DNA from: Fibrobacter sp. UWR2
GTDB lineage: Bacteria > Fibrobacterota > Fibrobacteria > Fibrobacterales > Fibrobacteraceae
DNA: 64,000 nt
NCBI RefSeq assembly: GCF_002210285.1
Contig: NZ_MWQE01000001.1
Coordinates: 682,001-746,000 of the forward strand
Reading direction: 5' to 3'
The notes under the pieces were generated by a model. The model saw nothing but the letters and a program-made list of their open reading frames with translations. It ran no database searches and had not been told where the DNA came from. This document shows, in pieces, positions 14,945-30,348 of the stretch. Positions within the stretch are counted from its first letter, which is position 1. Each line of letters starts with the position of its first letter. Position numbers and translations under genes: made by a program.

Positions 14945-15757
14945 CTATACCTTGTCCGTAAGCGGGAAGAGTTGAAGGTTGAGGCGGTAGACCTGTTCGA
15001 TGTTCTTGCAGCCATTCGCAAGTGCGATGACGTTGCGGCGGCATTTGTCTATCTCTTCGGATATCCGTGCGAGTGTCGCTGTGTCGACGCCCATGGTAAC
15101 GCCCGAGATGTTCCTTTCGTGTACATTGACGCTGTCGATGGCTTCCTTGGCGAGGTCGGTCATTTCGCGGTTCATGCTGCGGAGCGCAAGCGGAATGGCT
15201 TCGGTCGAGCCGGTGATGGCCTTGTCCGTCTGGCGGTAGACGTTTTCGTCTGTTTCTTCGAGATACTTTGCGCGGGTGAGCATGGCGAGCGAATCGCGGA
15301 CCTGTTGCGCCGTGTAGAGGTGCTTGATACGCTTCGCCATCTCGTTCGGGAGGGCGCCCGGCATCAGGGGTGCTAGCTCGCGCACGATGGAGTTGATGGC
15401 GGATTCATAGTAGGCGAACGTGTCGGAATCGATGACGCGCGCCTTCTGTTCCTTTGCGATGCGGGTGAGCTCTGCAAATGCGGCCTTCTTCTTCTCGTCG
15501 TTTGTTGCGTTCCCGAATTCGACCATCTTCTCGAAGTAGGTGAACTCGTAGCCCAAAAGTCCCATCGCGTTGGCGACGCGCGGGAGCCCCACGCGGCTGA
15601 GCGAACTCTTGCCTTCGCATACCAGCTTGAGGTATGATGGCGATGCGAATCCGGCGCCCTTCGAGAATTCACGCCAGGTGAAGCCGGACTTCTTCTTTTC
15701 CTCATAGAAGTCCTGCATGTAGCGGCGGTAGTCCTGGTATTCGGTAATCGGTTTCAT
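14945..15757 (-). CDS. TIGR02147 family protein, copy 1
   Basis: 270 residues. The family was defined from paralogs in Fibrobacter succinogenes and has no assigned role. The N-terminus (EYQDYRRYMQDFYEEKKKSG, FTWREFSKGAGFASPSYLK, GKSSLSRVGLPRVANAMGL) looks like a helix-turn-helix of the Xre type, which suggests a transcription regulator, but this is inference. The end LNLQLFPLTDKV is nearly identical to copy 2 (LNFQLFPFTNKI). It leads a three-gene unit with two lipoproteins. The 217 bp upstream is AT-rich and holds no gene. Confidence 0.9.
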   Translation of the reverse strand: MKPITEYQDYRRYMQDFYEEKKKSGFTWREFSKGAGFASPSYLKLVCEGKSSLSRVGLPRVANAMGLLGYEFTYFEKMVEFGNATNDEKKKAAFAELTRIAKEQKARVIDSDTFAYYESAINSIVRELAPLMPGALPNEMAKRIKHLYTAQQVRDSLAMLTRAKYLEETDENVYRQTDKAITGSTEAIPLALRSMNREMTDLAKEAIDSVNVHERNISGVTMGVDTATLARISEEIDKCRRNVIALANGCKNIEQVYRLNLQLFPLTDKV

Positions 15758-21168: not shown

Positions 21169-22476
21169 TTATTGGCGTAGGTCTGCGCGGTACCATTCGC
21201 CGTAGGGGCCGTTTTCTTTGCCGGGGGGCACTCCGTTCTCGTCGCATGTCCATGGAGTGTTTTCGAAGAAGTCGGCACCTGCAGATGTCATCGCATACTC
21301 ATCGAATTCCCCTGTACAGTCTTTTATAAGGAATACTTGCGCGAAGTCATCGTCTTTTTTGCAGTCTCCGCCGGCAACGATAAGCGCGTATTTGACGTAT
21401 TCATATTCGATATGTGTCAGAATCATGGCTAAGGATTGGAACCCTGGCGTGGCGACTGTGTAGATATCGCAGTGCTCGGGGTTGAAATTTTCTCCGGTAA
21501 TGGCCGTTGTCATCGGAAAGTACTTGGCGACTTCGGCGGGTGAGGGTTCCCTGATGGTATATGAACCCGTATCGAAAACAATTTCGCTTGTCGGCAGGAT
21601 GCGGTAGGCGAGTACGAGGCTGTCGAATGTAATTTCTTCGGAAATATTCGCGAATTGCTCCGCATACTTTTCCAGAGTGAACGATGCCGTATCGATTGCT
21701 TCACCTTTGTTGCCTGTGTCGAGGTGGTCAATGGGGTTGTGCCCGGGAGTCCAGTAATCTTCGATGGGGTCAAAGTCCGAAACGTCAAGCTTGCCGGCGG
21801 CAATGTCGGTGCAGACACTTTCAGATTTCTTTACGAAGTCCTGGATAAAGCTGCTTGTGTCGAGAGCTGTCGTGGAATCCCGTTTTACATGGCATTTCTT
21901 TGTCCCGTCAGCTTCGGGTTCAGAGCATTCCAATGTAAGATGGCTTAAATCGGCGCAGAAGGCGTACAAATCTCCCGTTGAAGTGCAGAAACCGCTGTAA
22001 CCGCCTATTACGGTGATTTTCGGGTTGGTGTTGCATGCATCCTGGAACTTTTGGAGAATGCTGTCGCAGGCGGCTCCGACATTGTGCATTGTCAATGTCT
22101 TAAAGATATAGCCGTATCTTGATTCCATCTTGAATTTAGCATTGAAGGACTGATCGCCTGCGGTACAAGTCGCTGCCGCTCCATTTTCCTTGTCGTAGAG
22201 CTTGACATCAAGGCTGTCCATGTCGCTGCTTAGAGAGGTCGGTTCCGTCTCGAATGCGGTTAGTTTTGAGTAGAAGGCGGTATCTTGGTCTCCACGGAGC
22301 TCGATAAGTTCGGGAATGATAGGCTTGTCGCCTTCAAAGACAATGGAGTCGTTATCTGCAGTTGCGTTCGGGATGGTCGTAGAACCTGCGGACGATGGGT
22401 TGTCCGAGGAACATGCGTAAAGTGCGCAAAGGGCGAGGGCGCTTGCGATATAGAGATTTTTCTTGAGGTTAAGCAT
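21169..22476 (-). CDS. Lipoprotein, cassette 2
   Basis: 435 residues. Lipoprotein signal with lipobox LYAC and the linker SSDNPSSAGSTT, much like the cassette 1 lipoproteins. The mature part is acidic, with many Cys residues in pairs (CADLSHLTLECSE, CKKDDDFAQVFLIKDC). No known domain is recognised and the similarity to the cassette 1 proteins beyond the N-terminus is not obvious by eye. The ATG (22476) overlaps the end of the TIGR02147 gene by 8 bp, a sign of coupled translation. Confidence 0.8.
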   Translation of the reverse strand: MLNLKKNLYIASALALCALYACSSDNPSSAGSTTIPNATADNDSIVFEGDKPIIPELIELRGDQDTAFYSKLTAFETEPTSLSSDMDSLDVKLYDKENGAAATCTAGDQSFNAKFKMESRYGYIFKTLTMHNVGAACDSILQKFQDACNTNPKITVIGGYSGFCTSTGDLYAFCADLSHLTLECSEPEADGTKKCHVKRDSTTALDTSSFIQDFVKKSESVCTDIAAGKLDVSDFDPIEDYWTPGHNPIDHLDTGNKGEAIDTASFTLEKYAEQFANISEEITFDSLVLAYRILPTSEIVFDTGSYTIREPSPAEVAKYFPMTTAITGENFNPEHCDIYTVATPGFQSLAMILTHIEYEYVKYALIVAGGDCKKDDDFAQVFLIKDCTGEFDEYAMTSAGADFFENTPWTCDENGVPPGKENGPYGEWYRADLRQ

Positions 22477-23302
22477 GGTTCGCTCCTTCTATCTTGTTTG
22501 TAAACGGAAAAAGTTGGAAGTTCAGGCCGTAGACCTGATCCTGGTTGTCGCTCTCGTTAGCGATGGCGGCAATTTTCTTGCTGCAGATGTCGATTTCGTT
22601 CACGATGCGCGAATAGGTGGCTTCGCTCACGCCGATGGTCATTCCGGTGAAGTACCGCTCGCTTGCGCTGTAGCGGTCTACTGCGCGCACGGCCATGTTG
22701 CCCATTTCCTTGTGCATGGAGCGGATGGCGATGGGGAGGGCTTCCGGAGAGCCGATGACGGCCTTCTCGGTCTGGGTGTAGACCTTTTCGCCGTCCTTCT
22801 TGAGGAACCCGGCCTTTACCAGGAAGGCGAGGATGTCGCGGACTTCTTCGGCAGAAACATATTCCTTGCACTCGTCGGCGATTTTGCGGGGCTGCGCTCC
22901 GGGCATCATCGGGGCGAGTTCGCGGATTACGGGGTATTTCCATGATTCGTAGTACTGGAAGGCATCACGGTCAACTACGCGCACCTTGTGCTCGCGGGCA
23001 ATCCTGTCCATTTCGACAAGGGCTTCTTTCTTGGCGCTGTCCGTCTCGGCGTTTCCGAAAAGGACGAGATGTTTGAAGTATTCGCTCTCGTATCCGACGA
23101 GTTCCATGGCCTTCGCGACCGGAGCAATCTTGATCTTGCTCAGGCTGCTTTGGCCCATGCAGACGAGTTTCAGGAAGTTCGGCGACGTGAATCCGGCGAG
23201 CTTGCAGAATTCGCGCCACGAGAATGCACCGTGACTTTTACGGTAATCGTAATAGTCCTGCATGTAGGCGCGATAATCTTTGTATTCGAGTATCGATTTC
23301 AT
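22469..23302 (-). CDS. TIGR02147 family protein, copy 2
   Basis: 277 residues from ATG 23302 (MKSILEYKDYRAYMQ); a 17-residue longer frame has no support. Clearly paralogous to copy 1 along its length: FSWREFCKLAGFTSPNFLK, VIRELAPMMPGA, QTEKAVIGSPEALPIAIRSM, LNFQLFPFTNKI. The putative N-terminal helix-turn-helix and the C-terminal region are the best conserved parts. Followed directly by a lipoprotein gene, repeating the order in cassette 1. The AT-rich 213 bp upstream is shared with the divergent rubrerythrin gene. Confidence 0.9.
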   Translation of the reverse strand: MKSILEYKDYRAYMQDYYDYRKSHGAFSWREFCKLAGFTSPNFLKLVCMGQSSLSKIKIAPVAKAMELVGYESEYFKHLVLFGNAETDSAKKEALVEMDRIAREHKVRVVDRDAFQYYESWKYPVIRELAPMMPGAQPRKIADECKEYVSAEEVRDILAFLVKAGFLKKDGEKVYTQTEKAVIGSPEALPIAIRSMHKEMGNMAVRAVDRYSASERYFTGMTIGVSEATYSRIVNEIDICSKKIAAIANESDNQDQVYGLNFQLFPFTNKIEGANHA

Positions 23303-23430
23303 GTTTGTAAAATAGGTTTGTTTGACCTCAAAGTCAATATTTGAATTATACAAAAATGCTGAAAAATTGTATAAAAATGGAAAAAATGAATATAATTTTT
23401 AAATTTTCGTTTCTAAATTATACAGTGCGT

Positions 23431-24097: not shown

Positions 24098-24126
24098 ACC
24101 CCCGCGCAGGCGGGGGTCTTTTTTTT
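24098..24126 (+). terminator. Intrinsic terminator of rubrerythrin
   Basis: ACCCCCGC (24098-24105) pairs with GCGGGGGT (24110-24117), loop GCAG, followed by C and eight T. Confidence 0.92.
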
Positions 24127-24191: not shown

Positions 24192-25547
24192 ATGAAAGAT
24201 TTTATTGATTTCGAACCGTTCTATTCGCATGAGACGGATGTCTACAGTCTCAATGGATTTACTCCTGCTGTCGTGGACAAGGCTTATTTAGACAAACTTG
24301 GAGTCAAGGTTGCTCCGTCCGAAAGAACTCTCGAGGGGCTTACGCGCGGCTCCAAAGTGTTCATGGAACGCGTCAAGAACAAGACCGTTATTCCCGTATC
24401 GAGACTCTACCTCGAAAATATCGATCCCGAAAAGGTCCAGACAGAAATTCACAACTACACGGGCCGTTGCCCGACGCTCACGTTCGAAATTAATCCCATC
24501 AAGGGCTGCAATGTGGGATGCCAGTACTGCCTGGTGACCGACGGTGTGCATGAACAGAAGTTGGTCGCCTACGAGAATTACCACCTGTACGTGCGCAAGT
24601 TGCTTGAAGACATGAACGGTGACCCTTGGGGGCCGGTGACCGAAGAGGATATCCACAAGAAGAATGTGCTTCTGCAGGACCTCGCGACTGCCATCGAGGA
24701 GGCGCCGGAGCGCAAGCAGGAAATCGAGGCGAAAATCGTAGAACTGAGCCGCGGCAAGAACTGGAACCACTATTACTACTTTTCGCCCAAGACAGAAGCG
24801 TTCCAGGAACCGACGGTACAGACCGGTATCGCGCACAGGATCTTGAAGGAATTCATCGAACATTTCAAGAAGCATCCCGATTCCAATGCGAGGCTCTTTA
24901 TCGCCTCGAAATCTGGCCCGAAGCACTTGCAGTACGAATATGAGGGCGAAACCATCCTCGACCTTTTCGAACAGCTCAAGGGCAAAATGCAGTTCAATAC
25001 TAGCGTGTCCATCATGCCGACGGAATTCAGGAACCTGCTGGAACCTTTTGCGGCGCCCATCGACGAGCGCTTGCAATCTGTAAAGCTCTGCCGCGAACGC
25101 GGAATCCAGGCGAATTCGGCGCTTATCCAGCCTATCGTCATGCCGTACCTTACCGACGAGCATATCAAGGAATTTTTCGACAAACTGCACAATGCGGGCA
25201 TTATCAACTACAAGCCGGAATTCTTGACCGCGTGCATGGAGAACCTGGCTATGCTCGGGCAGTGGCTCGGACATTTCGACAAGAACCTGGAACGCGAACT
25301 CTACGAAGTCTACCTGAAGCCCAGCAATGCAGACCACCGCAAACAGCGCGGGCGCACGGCTCCCGAAAGGGAACTCTGCATTGCCGCCATCAAGCGGATG
25401 ATGGACTACACGCAGACGCTCGGCATGTCGACCAGTATTTGCTACTGGGTCCGCAAGCAGTTGCAGATTCCGAATACGCTTATCCCCATCATCAACCAGA
25501 ACGGGTTCCAGTGCCTTGGATACCAATCCAAGCTTTTTCAGAAGTAG
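24192..25547 (+). CDS. Radical SAM protein of the spore-photoproduct-lyase-like family
   Basis: 451 residues. The radical SAM cluster motif CxxxCxxC is in KGCNVGCQYCLVTDG near residues 109-116. Downstream segments match SPL/COG1533-type radical SAM enzymes: a strand with IASKSGPKHL, then NTSVSIMPTEFRNLLEPFAAP with a run DERLQSVKLCRERGI and IQPIVMPYLTDEHI. A 60-residue charged helical insertion (MNGDPWGPVTEEDIHKKN to KIVELSRGKNW) is unusual. No DNA-repair gene is nearby; it is the first gene of a four-gene set with an ATP-grasp-like and a WbqC protein, so a biosynthetic role is more likely than photoproduct repair. Substrate unknown. Confidence 0.82.
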   Translation: MKDFIDFEPFYSHETDVYSLNGFTPAVVDKAYLDKLGVKVAPSERTLEGLTRGSKVFMERVKNKTVIPVSRLYLENIDPEKVQTEIHNYTGRCPTLTFEINPIKGCNVGCQYCLVTDGVHEQKLVAYENYHLYVRKLLEDMNGDPWGPVTEEDIHKKNVLLQDLATAIEEAPERKQEIEAKIVELSRGKNWNHYYYFSPKTEAFQEPTVQTGIAHRILKEFIEHFKKHPDSNARLFIASKSGPKHLQYEYEGETILDLFEQLKGKMQFNTSVSIMPTEFRNLLEPFAAPIDERLQSVKLCRERGIQANSALIQPIVMPYLTDEHIKEFFDKLHNAGIINYKPEFLTACMENLAMLGQWLGHFDKNLERELYEVYLKPSNADHRKQRGRTAPERELCIAAIKRMMDYTQTLGMSTSICYWVRKQLQIPNTLIPIINQNGFQCLGYQSKLFQK

Positions 25548-25565
25548 CCTCGCGACGAAGGTTTT

Positions 25566-26786
25566 ATGACTACCGAGACGAATTTATGGAATGTCTGTAA
25601 AGGGCTGTACGGGGACCAGGAAAACTATTACCACAGGTGGTATCACGAGAAACCTTTGGTCATTACGCCTGCACGCAACGAAGAATTGCGCGAGATGCAT
25701 CGCGTCCTCTATAAGTGCGTTGAATACATGGCGGCAAACTACGCCAATTTTACGGACAAGTACATGCCTCTTTCCGAAAAGGAAATGGAAATCCTTGAAT
25801 ACCAGGGCAAGTATCCGTTCTTGGCGGGGACATTCCGCCCCGACTATCTTATTACGGACGAAGGCGAGCTGAAACTTTGCGAGATTACGAGCAGGTTCTT
25901 CGGTCACGGGATTTTCATGTCGTACTTTGCCGAGGCTGCAGCCAACAATTTCATGGAGAAGTATCCCGGAGGCAAAAGGGAATCGCTCTTTGAACAGATG
26001 ATGCAGAGTGCGCTGGATATTGTCGGCGACAAAGATGAAATCTACGTGCTGAAGAGCTCGGACAAGACTTCCGAAATCAAGCTTTACAAGCCATTCTATG
26101 AACACTTCGGAAAAAAAGTCTTCATCTTGGAGGCTGACGAAGTCGAAAGCCGCATCAACGACTGGAATGGAAAATTCGTCATCAGCGCATTGAACCAGAA
26201 GGATATCCTGAGCTATTCCATGGATACCATCAAGGCCATGATTGATTCCAGGATGTACAACGATTTCCGCACGGTATTCCTGATTCACGACAAGCGGTTC
26301 ATGCAGCTCTGGTTTATGCCCGAGTTTACGCGGAACTTCCTCACTGATGCAGAAGCGGAATTCTTGCGGGCGCATTCCATCGAGACGTGGATATGCAAGG
26401 ACAAGTCGTCGGAAGATGTCTTGAAAAAAGCGTATGCAGGCAAGGACGGCTACATCTTGAAGCATTTCCGCCTGGGCAAGAGCGAAAAGGTCTATGCCGG
26501 CCCGCTGACGGACGAAAGCGATTGGAAGGCGCTTTTCGATGACGGCTCCGTCAAGGACATGATTATCCAGCCGTTCCTGCACCAGAAAACATTCCGCACC
26601 GTATGGGAAGGGACTCCCTTCGACGATTATGTATGCGGCATGATGCTCTGTATCGATGACAAGTATTTTGATTCCGGCCTTTTCCGTACGTCTAGTTGCC
26701 CGGTAACGAACGTCGTTGATGATAGGAAGGCGTTCCCCGTCGTGACAAGCGATGAACGTATCATTTCTTGCGGAGACATCCTTTGA
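25566..26786 (+). CDS. Putative circularly permuted ATP-grasp (glutathionylspermidine-synthase-like) protein
   Basis: 406 residues. FRPDYLITDEGELKLCEIT near residue 100, then FGHGIFMSYFAEA, resembles the first conserved block of GSP-synthase-like and permuted ATP-grasp ligases. The later segments DGYILKHFRLGKSEKVYAG (nucleotide-binding Lys), MIIQPFLHQK and the end GMMLCIDDKYFDSGLFRTS with SCPVTNVVDDRK also fit. Such enzymes join a carboxylate to an amine using ATP. The assignment is by motif only; no family name is certain. GAAGG precedes ATG 25566, 18 bp after the radical SAM stop. The stop overlaps the WbqC start. Confidence 0.6.
   Translation: MTTETNLWNVCKGLYGDQENYYHRWYHEKPLVITPARNEELREMHRVLYKCVEYMAANYANFTDKYMPLSEKEMEILEYQGKYPFLAGTFRPDYLITDEGELKLCEITSRFFGHGIFMSYFAEAAANNFMEKYPGGKRESLFEQMMQSALDIVGDKDEIYVLKSSDKTSEIKLYKPFYEHFGKKVFILEADEVESRINDWNGKFVISALNQKDILSYSMDTIKAMIDSRMYNDFRTVFLIHDKRFMQLWFMPEFTRNFLTDAEAEFLRAHSIETWICKDKSSEDVLKKAYAGKDGYILKHFRLGKSEKVYAGPLTDESDWKALFDDGSVKDMIIQPFLHQKTFRTVWEGTPFDDYVCGMMLCIDDKYFDSGLFRTSSCPVTNVVDDRKAFPVVTSDERIISCGDIL
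26772..26775 (+). promoter_or_regulatory. Ribosome site deciding the WbqC start
   Basis: GGAG at 26772-26775 is 7 nt before TTG 26783. There is no ATG near the conserved N-terminus, so this site supports the TTG start that overlaps the upstream TGA as TTGA. Confidence 0.6.
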
Positions 26787-27487
26787 TTATCGCCGGAAAC
26801 CAGCCCTATTTTCTCCCGTATATCGGTTTCTGGCAACTCCTCAATGCTGCCGACCTGTTCTTGATTGGGGATAACTACAACTTTATCAAGCACGGGTGGA
26901 TTCAGCGGAACAGGATTCTCGTTTGCGGCAAGCCCTTCTTCTGGGGGCTTGAAGTGAAACACATGAGTTCGTTTAAGAAGATAAACGAAACGGAATTCAC
27001 GGACTTTAATGTTTCTCAAAAACTGGACACGATCTATTACGCTTATTGCAGGGCCCCGCAATTCAATGCCGGTTTCGCCCTTATCGAGAAGATATTGAAC
27101 TATCCTGAGCGCAATGTCGCAGAATTCCTTTTCCATTCCATAAAAGCAGTCTGCCAGTATCTCGAAATAAACACGAAGTTCATCAAGAGTTCGGAAATCG
27201 AGGGCAACGACAACTACAGGAGGGAATACCGTATTTTTGATTTCTGCCAGCGGCTGGGGGGCGACACCTACATCAATGCCGTGGGCGGGCAGGACCTGTA
27301 CCATTTCGATGATTTCGAGAAGCACGGAGTTACGCTGAAGTTTATTCGCCCCAATATCCGGCCGTACAAACAGTTCCATAACGAATTTGTGCCGGGGCTT
27401 TCCATTCTGGATGTCATCATGTTCAATTCGCTGGATGCGATAAAGAACATGCTTGAAGACTGCAGTTTTATTGAGAAGCAGAAATAG
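26783..27487 (+). CDS. WbqC-family protein
   Basis: 234 residues starting at TTG 26783, giving (M)IIAGNQPYFLPYIGFWQLL, the typical WbqC N-terminus; an upstream TTG at 26768 is less well placed. Conserved WbqC features: DLFLIGDNYNFIKHGWIQRNRIL, ILNYPERNVAEFLFHSIKAVCQYL, GGDTYINAVGGQDLY, and PGLSILDVIMFNSLDAI at the end. WbqC proteins occur in O-antigen and other surface-glycan or natural-product clusters; the reaction is not established. TTGA overlap with the ATP-grasp-like gene indicates coupled translation. Confidence 0.85.
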   Translation: MIIAGNQPYFLPYIGFWQLLNAADLFLIGDNYNFIKHGWIQRNRILVCGKPFFWGLEVKHMSSFKKINETEFTDFNVSQKLDTIYYAYCRAPQFNAGFALIEKILNYPERNVAEFLFHSIKAVCQYLEINTKFIKSSEIEGNDNYRREYRIFDFCQRLGGDTYINAVGGQDLYHFDDFEKHGVTLKFIRPNIRPYKQFHNEFVPGLSILDVIMFNSLDAIKNMLEDCSFIEKQK

Positions 27488-27499
27488 GAGAAAATAAGT

Positions 27500-29005
27500 A
27501 TGAAAGGGGAAACTTTTCAAAACCATTCTTTACGCTTGTTGATTGCAACATCCGCTTTCGTCGCCCTAGTATTAGGAGCGTGTGGCGACGATGATCCCAG
27601 TATCCTTTTGCCTGGAGATTCCAGTTCCGTAGATGAAATTTCAAGTAGCATTGAACCGTATTCATCGGTGGAAGAAAGCTCCAGCAGCGCTAAGAGTTCT
27701 AGTTCCGTAATCACCGCTTGGGATTACATGAATCCAGGATTGTCTTATGGCGAACTTGTGGACTCTCGCGATAATAAGGTCTACAAGACCATAGAGTTTG
27801 ACGGAAAGGTATGGATGGCGGAAAACCTGAACTACGATGTGGGTGATACGCTCCATACCTGGTGTGCCCGCGAAAATTGCGATTTGTATGGACGTCTGTA
27901 CACGTATGCTGTGGCGATGGATTCTGCTAAATCCGGCTGTGGCTTTATGACGGTTTGCTCGGTACCTAAAAACTTCCAGGGAATTTGCCCTGAAGGGTGG
28001 CATGTTCTTGAATATGAGGAGATAGACGGCCCCGTCTTCTATCAAAAAAATCTTTTCGGCGCAGGCGCCCCGAAATGGGAGGATTCCCTTAATACGAATG
28101 TTTATGGGCTTACTTTTTTGCCAGCGGGCTTTATGCGCTATAGTATGGCCGGTACATCGAATCTGGAAACCTGGAATGCATATTTTTGGACAACCATGGA
28201 GTTGTCGGATTCTTTGGCACGCGCCTATATGCGGAATTCGAAAGTGTCAGATGCTATATATGCGCCGACCAAGGCTTCGGGACTTTCTGTCCGTTGCATA
28301 AAGAACTACGAGCGACATGAGGCACTTGTTGATCCGTCGACTGTGAAGAAGGGTGAATTTACGGATGCCCGTGACGAGCAGACGTATAAGACGGTGACTA
28401 TCGGAAGGCAGACGTGGATGGCGGAAAATCTCAATTACGCCGATAGCGTAAAGACGCCTGTTCTTGAAGGACGCGTGAAATCGGCATACTTGGATGATCC
28501 GGATTCGAATAAATTTTATGGGCGACTTTACACTTGGGCTGCGGCTATGGATTCCGGGGCTTTCGACTATTCCTTCTTGACGAAGCATGTTAGTCAGAAA
28601 AATATTCGAGGGATTTGCCCTGAAGGTTGGCATTTGCCGAACCGCATTGAATTCGCTGAACTTTTGGAATCCATTGGTGGTGCGTACAAGAATGCTCATG
28701 CGTTGAAGTCTAACGTTGGCTGGGACAAAGATCCTGGCGACGACGAATACGGTTTTGCGCTAGTGGGCGCAGGGCGTGTTGATACAACAGATAATGACAT
28801 TTACGCCACATACGGGGGCTCGGCATTCTTGTGGACTGCAGAACCTTATTATGATATCATTCCTTCTTTCATAGATAAGCGTGCTCACGTCTACACTCTG
28901 GACGAACGCCATGTGGTATATTCCGAATATATGGCCGATACGGCCGTGTTCAAGTCGGGCTTTAACTCTATCCGCTGTCTAAAAGACGAAATTGCAGATA
29001 GATAA
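27500..29005 (+). CDS. FISUMP-domain lipoprotein with two repeats
   Basis: 501 residues. Lipoprotein signal ending in LVLGAC, then a Ser-rich linker with clusters such as SSSAKSSSS typical of Fibrobacter surface proteins. Two Fibrobacter major paralogous (TIGR02145) domains follow, at about 75-270 and 285-495. Each has the set VYKTIEFDGKVWMAENLNY / TYKTVTIGRQTWMAENLNY, LYGRLYTYAVAMDS / FYGRLYTWAAAMDS, ICPEGWH, and a terminal VRCIKN / IRCLKD. GGAG lies about 10 nt before ATG 27500, only 12 bp after the WbqC gene. Function of the domain is unknown; the lipid anchor puts it in the envelope. Confidence 0.93.
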   Translation: MKGETFQNHSLRLLIATSAFVALVLGACGDDDPSILLPGDSSSVDEISSSIEPYSSVEESSSSAKSSSSVITAWDYMNPGLSYGELVDSRDNKVYKTIEFDGKVWMAENLNYDVGDTLHTWCARENCDLYGRLYTYAVAMDSAKSGCGFMTVCSVPKNFQGICPEGWHVLEYEEIDGPVFYQKNLFGAGAPKWEDSLNTNVYGLTFLPAGFMRYSMAGTSNLETWNAYFWTTMELSDSLARAYMRNSKVSDAIYAPTKASGLSVRCIKNYERHEALVDPSTVKKGEFTDARDEQTYKTVTIGRQTWMAENLNYADSVKTPVLEGRVKSAYLDDPDSNKFYGRLYTWAAAMDSGAFDYSFLTKHVSQKNIRGICPEGWHLPNRIEFAELLESIGGAYKNAHALKSNVGWDKDPGDDEYGFALVGAGRVDTTDNDIYATYGGSAFLWTAEPYYDIIPSFIDKRAHVYTLDERHVVYSEYMADTAVFKSGFNSIRCLKDEIADR

Positions 29006-29073: not shown

Positions 29074-30348
29074 ATGGCAAGAGCTTTGATTATCGGTTGT
29101 GGCGCTGTCGCCACGGTTGCTATCAAGAAATGCTGCACGGCAAGCGAAGTGTTCAGCGAAATCTGCATCGCTAGCCGTCACCGCGAAAACTGCGAAAAGC
29201 TGGCACAGGAACTGCGCCCGAACACGAAGACGGTCATTACGACTGCCGCGGTGGATGCCGATAAGGCCGAAAATGTCGTGAAACTCATCAAGGAATACAA
29301 GCCCGACCTGGTGATGAACATCGCGCTCCCGTACCAGGACCTCGCCATCATGGACGCCTGCCTCGAATGTGGCGTGAACTACATGGACACGGCGAACTAC
29401 GAGCCCGAAAACATCGACGATCCGGAATGGCGCAAGGTTTACGACAAGCGTTGCAAGGAACAGGGCTTCAGCGCCTACTTCGACTACAGCTGGCAGTGGG
29501 CTTACAAGGAAAAGTTTGAAAAGGCCGGCCTCACGGCGCTGCTGGGTTCCGGCTTTGACCCGGGTGTTTCCCAGGCCTACTGTGCCTACGCCCTCAAGCA
29601 CCAGTTCGACACCATCGAAGAAATCGATATCCTCGACTGCAACGGCGGCGATCACGGCTACAAGTTTGCGACGAACTTCAACCCCGAAATCAACCTGCGC
29701 GAAGTTTCCGCTCCGGGCAGCTACTGGGACACCGACGAAAACGGCAAGGGCCACTGGGTCGAAATTCCGGCCATGAGCATCAAGCGCGAATACGTGTTCG
29801 ACGAAGTGGGCAAGAAGGACATGTACCTGCTGCACCACGAAGAAATCGAATCGCTGGCCCAGAACATTCCGGGCGTCAAGCGCATCCGCTTCTTCATGAC
29901 GTTCGGCCAGAGCTACCTCGACCACATGCGCTGCCTCGAAGACGTGGGCATGCTCAGCACGCAGCCCATCAAGTTCCAGGGCCAGGAAATCGTTCCTATC
30001 CAGTTCTTGAAGGCCCTCCTTCCGGACCCGGCAAGCCTCGGCCCCCGCACGGTGGGCAAGACGAACATCGGTTGCATTTTCAAGGGCACCAAGGACGGCA
30101 AGCCGAAGACCTACTACCTCTACAACGTTTGCGACCATCAGGAATGCTACAAGGAACTCGGTAGCCAGGCCATCGCTTACACCACAGGCGTTCCGGCCAT
30201 GTGCGGCGCCATGATGGTGCTCACCGGCAAGTGGAACAAGCCGGGCGTGCATACCGTGGAAGAATTTGACCCGGATCCGTTCATGGAAGCCCTCACCAAG
30301 TACGGCCTCCCGTGGAAGGAAAACTTCAACCCTGTTCTCGTTGACTAG
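29074..30348 (+). CDS. Carboxynorspermidine synthase / saccharopine-dehydrogenase-like enzyme
   Basis: 424 residues. The N-terminal Rossmann fold (ALIIGCGAVATVAIKKC), NIALPYQDLAIMDAC and NYMDTANYEP, plus GSGFDPGVSQAY and the C-terminal CDHQECYKELGSQAIAYTTG, match carboxy(nor)spermidine dehydrogenase, which condenses aspartate semialdehyde with putrescine or diaminopropane using NADPH. speA follows 14 bp downstream, fitting a spermidine pathway through carboxyspermidine rather than decarboxylated SAM. The decarboxylase NspC and agmatine-to-putrescine enzymes are not in the window. Confidence 0.88.
   Translation: MARALIIGCGAVATVAIKKCCTASEVFSEICIASRHRENCEKLAQELRPNTKTVITTAAVDADKAENVVKLIKEYKPDLVMNIALPYQDLAIMDACLECGVNYMDTANYEPENIDDPEWRKVYDKRCKEQGFSAYFDYSWQWAYKEKFEKAGLTALLGSGFDPGVSQAYCAYALKHQFDTIEEIDILDCNGGDHGYKFATNFNPEINLREVSAPGSYWDTDENGKGHWVEIPAMSIKREYVFDEVGKKDMYLLHHEEIESLAQNIPGVKRIRFFMTFGQSYLDHMRCLEDVGMLSTQPIKFQGQEIVPIQFLKALLPDPASLGPRTVGKTNIGCIFKGTKDGKPKTYYLYNVCDHQECYKELGSQAIAYTTGVPAMCGAMMVLTGKWNKPGVHTVEEFDPDPFMEALTKYGLPWKENFNPVLVD

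Follow-up and report, generated by a model that had tools for sequence, protein, structure and literature searches.

Bacillithiol synthase (BshC) adds cysteine to glucosaminyl-malate, that is, an amino acid onto the amine of a glucosamine derivative. The Pfam note on the WbqC family presumably mentions a proposed glycine transferase, WbnG. In O-antigen and capsule-type loci of Alphaproteobacteria, Cytophagia and Proteus, WbqC genes lie beside genes for DegT aminotransferases. In E-64 biosynthesis, the fungal ligase Cp1B couples a dicarboxylic acid with an amino acid, and its alanine mutants at R139, D141, E163 and N165 had their activity lost or strongly cut (PMC12568646).

We analyzed a locus of Fibrobacter sp. 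UWR2 that encodes a radical SAM enzyme (rSAM), a predicted ATP-grasp ligase of 406 residues and a WbqC-family protein; these three genes are called the module below. The ligase resembles Cp1B in its whole-length fold, in a significant profile match and in three of the four mutated catalytic residues; however, the two proteins are only about 19% identical, one being bacterial and the other fungal, and Cp1B is accompanied by t-epoxysuccinate synthase and an ANL amide synthetase, whereas the Fibrobacter ligase is accompanied by rSAM and WbqC. The ATP-grasp fold class is common to this protein, the peptidyl-polyamine/glutathionylspermidine synthetases YjfC, YgiC and GspS, and the glutathione synthetases. 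Unlike the GspS-type enzymes, the 406-residue protein has no Pfam GSP_synth match, is nearer to Cp1B and has no conserved polyamine gene partner. The WbqC model superposes on BshC, whose reaction is of the type proposed here for WbqC, although sequence-profile similarity is lacking and WbqC is less than half as long as BshC. As in the O-antigen and capsule-type loci, WbqC stands beside DegT in many module loci; the WbqC-DegT loci elsewhere, however, have no annotated rSAM/ATP-grasp pair, so the module would add an extra acyl-building step. The original prediction knew of no described pathway with this enzyme set, and our literature search (rSAM with WbqC; rSAM-ATP-grasp with capsule) likewise found no description of it.

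Locus layout and borders of the module in Fibrobacterota

The window, the whole stretch of DNA that was analyzed, comprises 64,000 nucleotides (contig NZ_MWQE01000001.1, positions 682,001-746,000). The features of the locus, in window positions, are as follows:

24098..24126, + strand: intrinsic terminator of the upstream rubrerythrin gene (8-bp stem, 7 GC pairs, then T8)
24192..25547, + strand: radical SAM enzyme, 451 aa (PF04055; alignment of homologues; homologues in 80 loci)
25566..26786, + strand: predicted ATP-grasp amide ligase, 406 aa, glutathione-synthetase/Cp1B-like fold (profile, AF2 model, Foldseek, VIA)
26783..27487, + strand: WbqC-family protein, 234 aa, TTG start (PF08889; class I aminoacyl-tRNA synthetase/BshC-like fold in the AF2 model)
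27500..29005, + strand: FISUMP-domain lipoprotein, 501 aa (PF09603 / TIGR02145, E 1e-75; lipobox LGAC visible)

Four tightly packed plus-strand genes had been described here, and the ORF coordinates agree exactly, with gaps of 18, -4 and 12 bp; the gene after the lipoprotein starts at 29074, 68 bp on. HMM searches matched WbqC to PF08889, the lipoprotein to PF09603/TIGR02145 and the radical SAM enzyme to PF04055. The strong terminator, called at 24098-24117 5' of the rSAM gene, parts the rubrerythrin gene from the unit and forms the unit boundary. At the other end, the FISUMP lipoprotein gene is probably co-transcribed with the module in this genome. Elsewhere in the window, a regulator-like protein and a divergent lipoprotein occur as a paralogous pair (14945-15757 and 21169-23353), and a tandem duplication is present in a relative (L063:13011-17430).

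Among 151 Fibrobacterota genomes, the ATP-grasp gene was present in 15, rSAM in the identical 15 (plus one weak match of 72 residues), and WbqC in those 15 and in 13 others, mostly of different genera. Within the genus, the profile search found ATP-grasp in 19 of 80 genomes. The order rSAM-ATP-grasp-WbqC is kept in the 15 loci, two of which have an extra gene or gap before WbqC, while the flanks of the module vary among Fibrobacter subclades in the neighborhood maps. The survey thus bears out the claim that the three enzymes are one conserved unit whose gene order is held in related genomes; this unit consists of the three enzyme genes and excludes the lipoprotein gene.

The FISUMP lipoprotein had also been counted as a member of the system, which the survey contradicts: its gene adjoins the module in only three of the 15 Fibrobacter loci (the window, L064 and L065), all at one common site, and at the same site in L063 WbqC directly adjoins the polyamine dehydrogenase gene. 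The suggested polyamine link was not sustained either. The carboxynorspermidine/saccharopine-type (polyamine) dehydrogenase is encoded by a genus-wide core gene, found in each of the 40 high-quality genomes of the genus whether or not they carry the module. In two module-free genomes, this gene lies behind the rubrerythrin gene at about 100 bp (G069, L208) and about 400 bp (G035, L206). Because these are empty sites, the polyamine genes are native neighbors of the insertion site and not partners. The lipoprotein and polyamine genes are accidental neighbors of the module.

Sequence and predicted structure of the three enzymes

Pfam and NCBIfam scans of the 406-residue protein gave no family match beyond a chance hit, and none to GSP_synth; its identification needed a profile built from 67 sequences. 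This profile matched Cp1B (PDB 9CJN) with an E-value of 6e-21. When the AF2 model (pLDDT 93.7) was submitted to Foldseek, Cp1B was the best match (E 4e-21), and all 50 matches at E<=0.001 belonged to the glutathione-synthetase fold class. VIA also ranked Cp1B best (Z 30.6, 373 residues aligned), followed by YjfC, GSS, YgiC and GspS with Z from 24 to 28. After correction for an offset of 15 in the Cp1B chain numbering of the profile alignment, R139, D141 and E163 of Cp1B align to R91, D93 and E106, all three invariant in the 67 sequences, and N165 is replaced by T108 (threonine in 66/67). The aligned sequences are 40-92% identical to the window protein. The ligase had been proposed as ATP-grasp/GSP-synthase-like; the profile and the predicted structure confirm the glutathionylspermidine/glutathione-synthetase fold, and the ATP-grasp signature was found by both the profile and Foldseek. 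We regard the protein as an amide ligase of the ATP-grasp type with a glutathione-synthetase fold, confirmed at the level of the modeled fold. Given the profile and fold match to Cp1B and the invariance of the R/D/E residues, ATP-dependent amide ligation is its best-supported predicted activity.

The WbqC protein matched PF08889 with an E-value of 3e-59 (200.9 bits against a gathering score of 21.3), and its aligned homologues share 30-90% identity with the window protein. With the AF2 model (pLDDT 95.3), Foldseek returned weak matches to TyrRS only, and VIA placed BshC (4WBD) first with Z 14.0 and rmsd 3.5 over 225 of the 234 residues, then class I LysRS with Z 12.1, the next match being at 8. 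The Pfam scan did not match WbqC to PF10079 (BshC), and the WbqC profile had no match in the PDB sequence search. Since the profile-profile comparison with BshC (hhalign) gave a probability under 1%, the link between the two is one of fold. The most conserved WbqC stretch, QPYFxPYxGYWQ, would sit in the model at the first strand-loop-helix, the position of HIGH in class I enzymes. Unrelated WbqC genes were found directly after DegT in Rhizobium, Tateyamaria, Hymenobacter and Bernardetia, and in Proteus mirabilis one glycosyltransferase (GT2) lies between DegT and WbqC. The BshC/class I aaRS-like fold, together with the DegT adjacency in unrelated loci, suggests that WbqC may be a ligase that places an acyl group on the amine produced by DegT.

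The radical SAM protein scored 37 bits against PF04055 (cut-off 29.5), and its CxxxCxxC motif corresponds to C106-x3-C110-x2-C113, in which C106, C110 and C113 are invariant in 76 homologues. In the same homologues, C93, C417 and C441 are also invariant, and C300 and C348 are near-invariant; judged from the alignment, these five extra cysteines could hold an auxiliary cluster. The protein is the slowest-evolving of the three, its aligned homologues being 63-97% identical to the window protein. It had been predicted as an SPL-like radical SAM enzyme. The radical SAM assignment stands on PF04055 and CxxxCxxC, whereas the SPL likeness is weakly backed: the NCBIfam scan did not list the SPL family at E<=1, and the nearest named families, Rv2578c and PA0069, matched with 38-39 bits, far below their cut-offs. 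Searching the rSAM profile against PDB sequences resulted in no match, and the role of this protein is the least certain of the three enzymes.

Relatives in other phyla and horizontal transfer

The rSAM profile search resulted in 80 loci with 58-97% identity, from Fibrobacter, Bacteroidales/Prevotella, Lachnospiraceae and other Bacillota, and two Coriobacteriales MAGs. The rSAM-ATP-grasp relatives outside Fibrobacter come from herbivore guts and are mostly located in capsule or exopolysaccharide loci; Prevotella sp. khp7 (NZ_FOIV01000004) is the named strain among them. The ATP-grasp gene was present in 75 of the 80 loci, the five without it including contig ends. WbqC was found in most Bacteroidota module loci and in 11 of 25 Bacillota loci, and several Lachnospiraceae/Coriobacteriales loci were without it. 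Polysaccharide genes lie near the module in 32 of 40 Bacteroidota and 20 of 25 Bacillota loci, the recurrent neighbors being DegT aminotransferase, GT2, Wzx flippase, WbaP-type sugar transferase, UpxY antiterminator, ATPgrasp_ST and CapA. These per-locus gene lists are lower bounds because the simple gene caller missed some genes (e.g., the DegT of G067). None of the 13 Fibrobacter loci surveyed besides G067 had the recurrent polysaccharide families within about 6 kb of the module, and none of these families adjoins it in the window. No accompanying lipoprotein or polyamine genes were found at the module loci of other phyla.

The WbqC-free loci often carry a second ATP-grasp protein, BacD/DdaF/D-Ala-ligase-like, and an ArnC-like GT2 (e.g., L090, L097, L139 and L120), and possibly represent a subtype in which another amide ligase stands in for WbqC. 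In eight loci of three phyla, a protein of PstS-like periplasmic-binding fold with no visible signal peptide adjoins the module; four examples are as follows:

L131:8613-9458: PstS-like protein
L080:9305-10156: PstS-like protein
L122:8697-9557: PstS-like protein
L140:11709-12566: PstS-like protein

This protein is possibly a cytoplasmic sensor or enzyme, and no homologue of it was detected in the window's genome. An acyltransferase is encoded in the module locus of Prevotella khp7 (L124:3426-11797) together with AMP-binding and KAS III enzymes, a hint that the acyl group could be lipid-like.

In a quick tree of rSAM, with phyla as named by the submitters, the Fibrobacter sequences are split between the window's clade and a second position within Bacteroidota, where three of them fall. 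The near-complete Fibrobacter genome G067 (L075, on a 2.34-Mb contig) has a whole polysaccharide operon with the module at L075:8504-19045, in the order rSAM-ATP-grasp-WbqC-DegT-ATPgrasp_ST-CapA-F13-Wzx-GT2. Compared with Bacteroidota (Prevotellaceae) loci, its proteins are 94% (DegT), 99% (ATPgrasp_ST), 99% (CapA-like), 97% (F13) and 85% (Wzx) identical. The operon has 86% DNA identity to L107 over 7.1 kb, and a segment of it is 92% DNA-identical to a Lachnospiraceae contig (L132). These identities, 85-99% in protein to Prevotellaceae and 92% in DNA to L132, show a recent cross-phylum transfer of the G067 operon, which is thus exchanged between phyla. No plasmid or phage vehicle was found, since ATP-grasp relatives were absent from the plasmid and phage records searched, and rSAM relatives from the phage records. 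Over 80 Fibrobacter genomes, all of which have DegT genes, a link between the presence of the module and one DegT type was seen only in G067.

Proposed function and alternative explanations

We consider it fairly probable that the genes form a mobile three-enzyme module that decorates surface polysaccharide with an amide-linked group on an amino sugar. Its directly supported elements are the conserved unit, the ATP-grasp fold with the Cp1B residues, the fold class of WbqC, the polysaccharide setting in two other phyla, and the transfer. In the proposed scheme, the ATP-grasp enzyme would activate a carboxylate as an acyl phosphate and couple it with an amine. Part of the resulting amide-linked block, an aminoacyl or pseudodipeptide unit, would be made or modified by the radical SAM enzyme. 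WbqC would then link the block to a nucleotide-bound amino sugar (a 4-amino sugar, typically a DegT-type product) through the free amine of the sugar, and the decorated sugar would be built into capsular or exopolysaccharide. We infer the pathway direction, the substrates and the WbqC ligase activity by analogy. The window's copy would presumably use a sugar aminotransferase encoded elsewhere in the genome; an amine donor sugar is plausible for it because at least four strong DegT genes are present, all away from the module. A modified amide-linked surface group had been suggested originally, and this idea gains independent support from the polysaccharide neighborhoods in other phyla, its chemistry being argued by analogy. 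Against the decoration model stand the missing profile-level link between WbqC and BshC, the absence of the recurrent polysaccharide families within about 6 kb of the module in the 13 Fibrobacter loci and beside it in the window, the WbqC-free loci, and the AMP-binding and KAS III enzymes of khp7, which might mean that the product is a lipid or a small molecule.

In a different reading, the module makes a free amide-bonded small molecule, such as an E-64- or dapdiamide-like pseudopeptide, and the polysaccharide genes are mere frequent company at exchange hot spots. The nearest characterized relative of the ATP-grasp protein is the E-64 ligase, the combination of rSAM and ATP-grasp is characteristic of natural-product loci, the khp7 module has AMP-binding and KAS III genes nearby, and the module stands alone in most Fibrobacter loci. 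However, no exporter, oxygenase or amide-bond synthetase was observed to be conserved alongside the module, glycan loci are the home of WbqC and of DegT, its usual partner, and the operon moves with glycan genes; we judge this reading unlikely. Both enzyme classes are also known from RiPP pathways, in which rSAM and ATP-grasp would modify a short precursor peptide. A RiPP is very unlikely because no small ORF conserved beyond near-identical neighbors occurs in the 80 loci or the window; besides, the 18 and -4 bp gaps leave no room for a precursor gene inside the unit, and the Pfam scan matched no precursor-recognition domain.

Slightly less credible again is the version of the original prediction, in which the FISUMP lipoprotein would be the modification target of the enzymes, or polyamines from the downstream genes their substrates. 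The close packing in the window genome and the GSP-synthase-like fold speak for it, but the gene neighborhoods contradict it: the lipoprotein is adjacent in only three of 15 loci, the polyamine gene belongs to the genus core and G069 has an empty site, and in other phyla the module occurs without any of these genes. The least probable explanation takes the cluster for a stress response and rSAM for a DNA-repair enzyme of the spore-photoproduct-lyase-like kind. It could appeal to CxxxCxxC, the weak Rv2578c/PA0069 matches and the adjoining rubrerythrin gene; rSAM, however, is strictly paired with the amide ligase and glycan loci across phyla, the terminator parts the rubrerythrin gene from the module, and rubrerythrin is found at the site also without it.

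Returning to the decoration of surface polysaccharide, we tentatively propose a wider view, less secure than the module's function itself: an undescribed pathway for a radical-modified amide-linked substituent on a surface-glycan amino sugar, carried by a cassette traded among herbivore-gut Fibrobacterota, Bacteroidota, Bacillota and Actinomycetota, with the whole WbqC family being free-standing BshC-like aminoacyl:amino-sugar ligases. WbqC, a widespread but functionally unassigned family on which hardly anything has been published, would thereby gain a testable chemistry, and the newly recognized Cp1B-type ATP-grasp ligases would be extended from fungal natural products to bacterial surface glycans. 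That a cassette moves over four phyla within a single habitat suggests that surface structure is under selection in the rumen, for example through phage, host or predator recognition.
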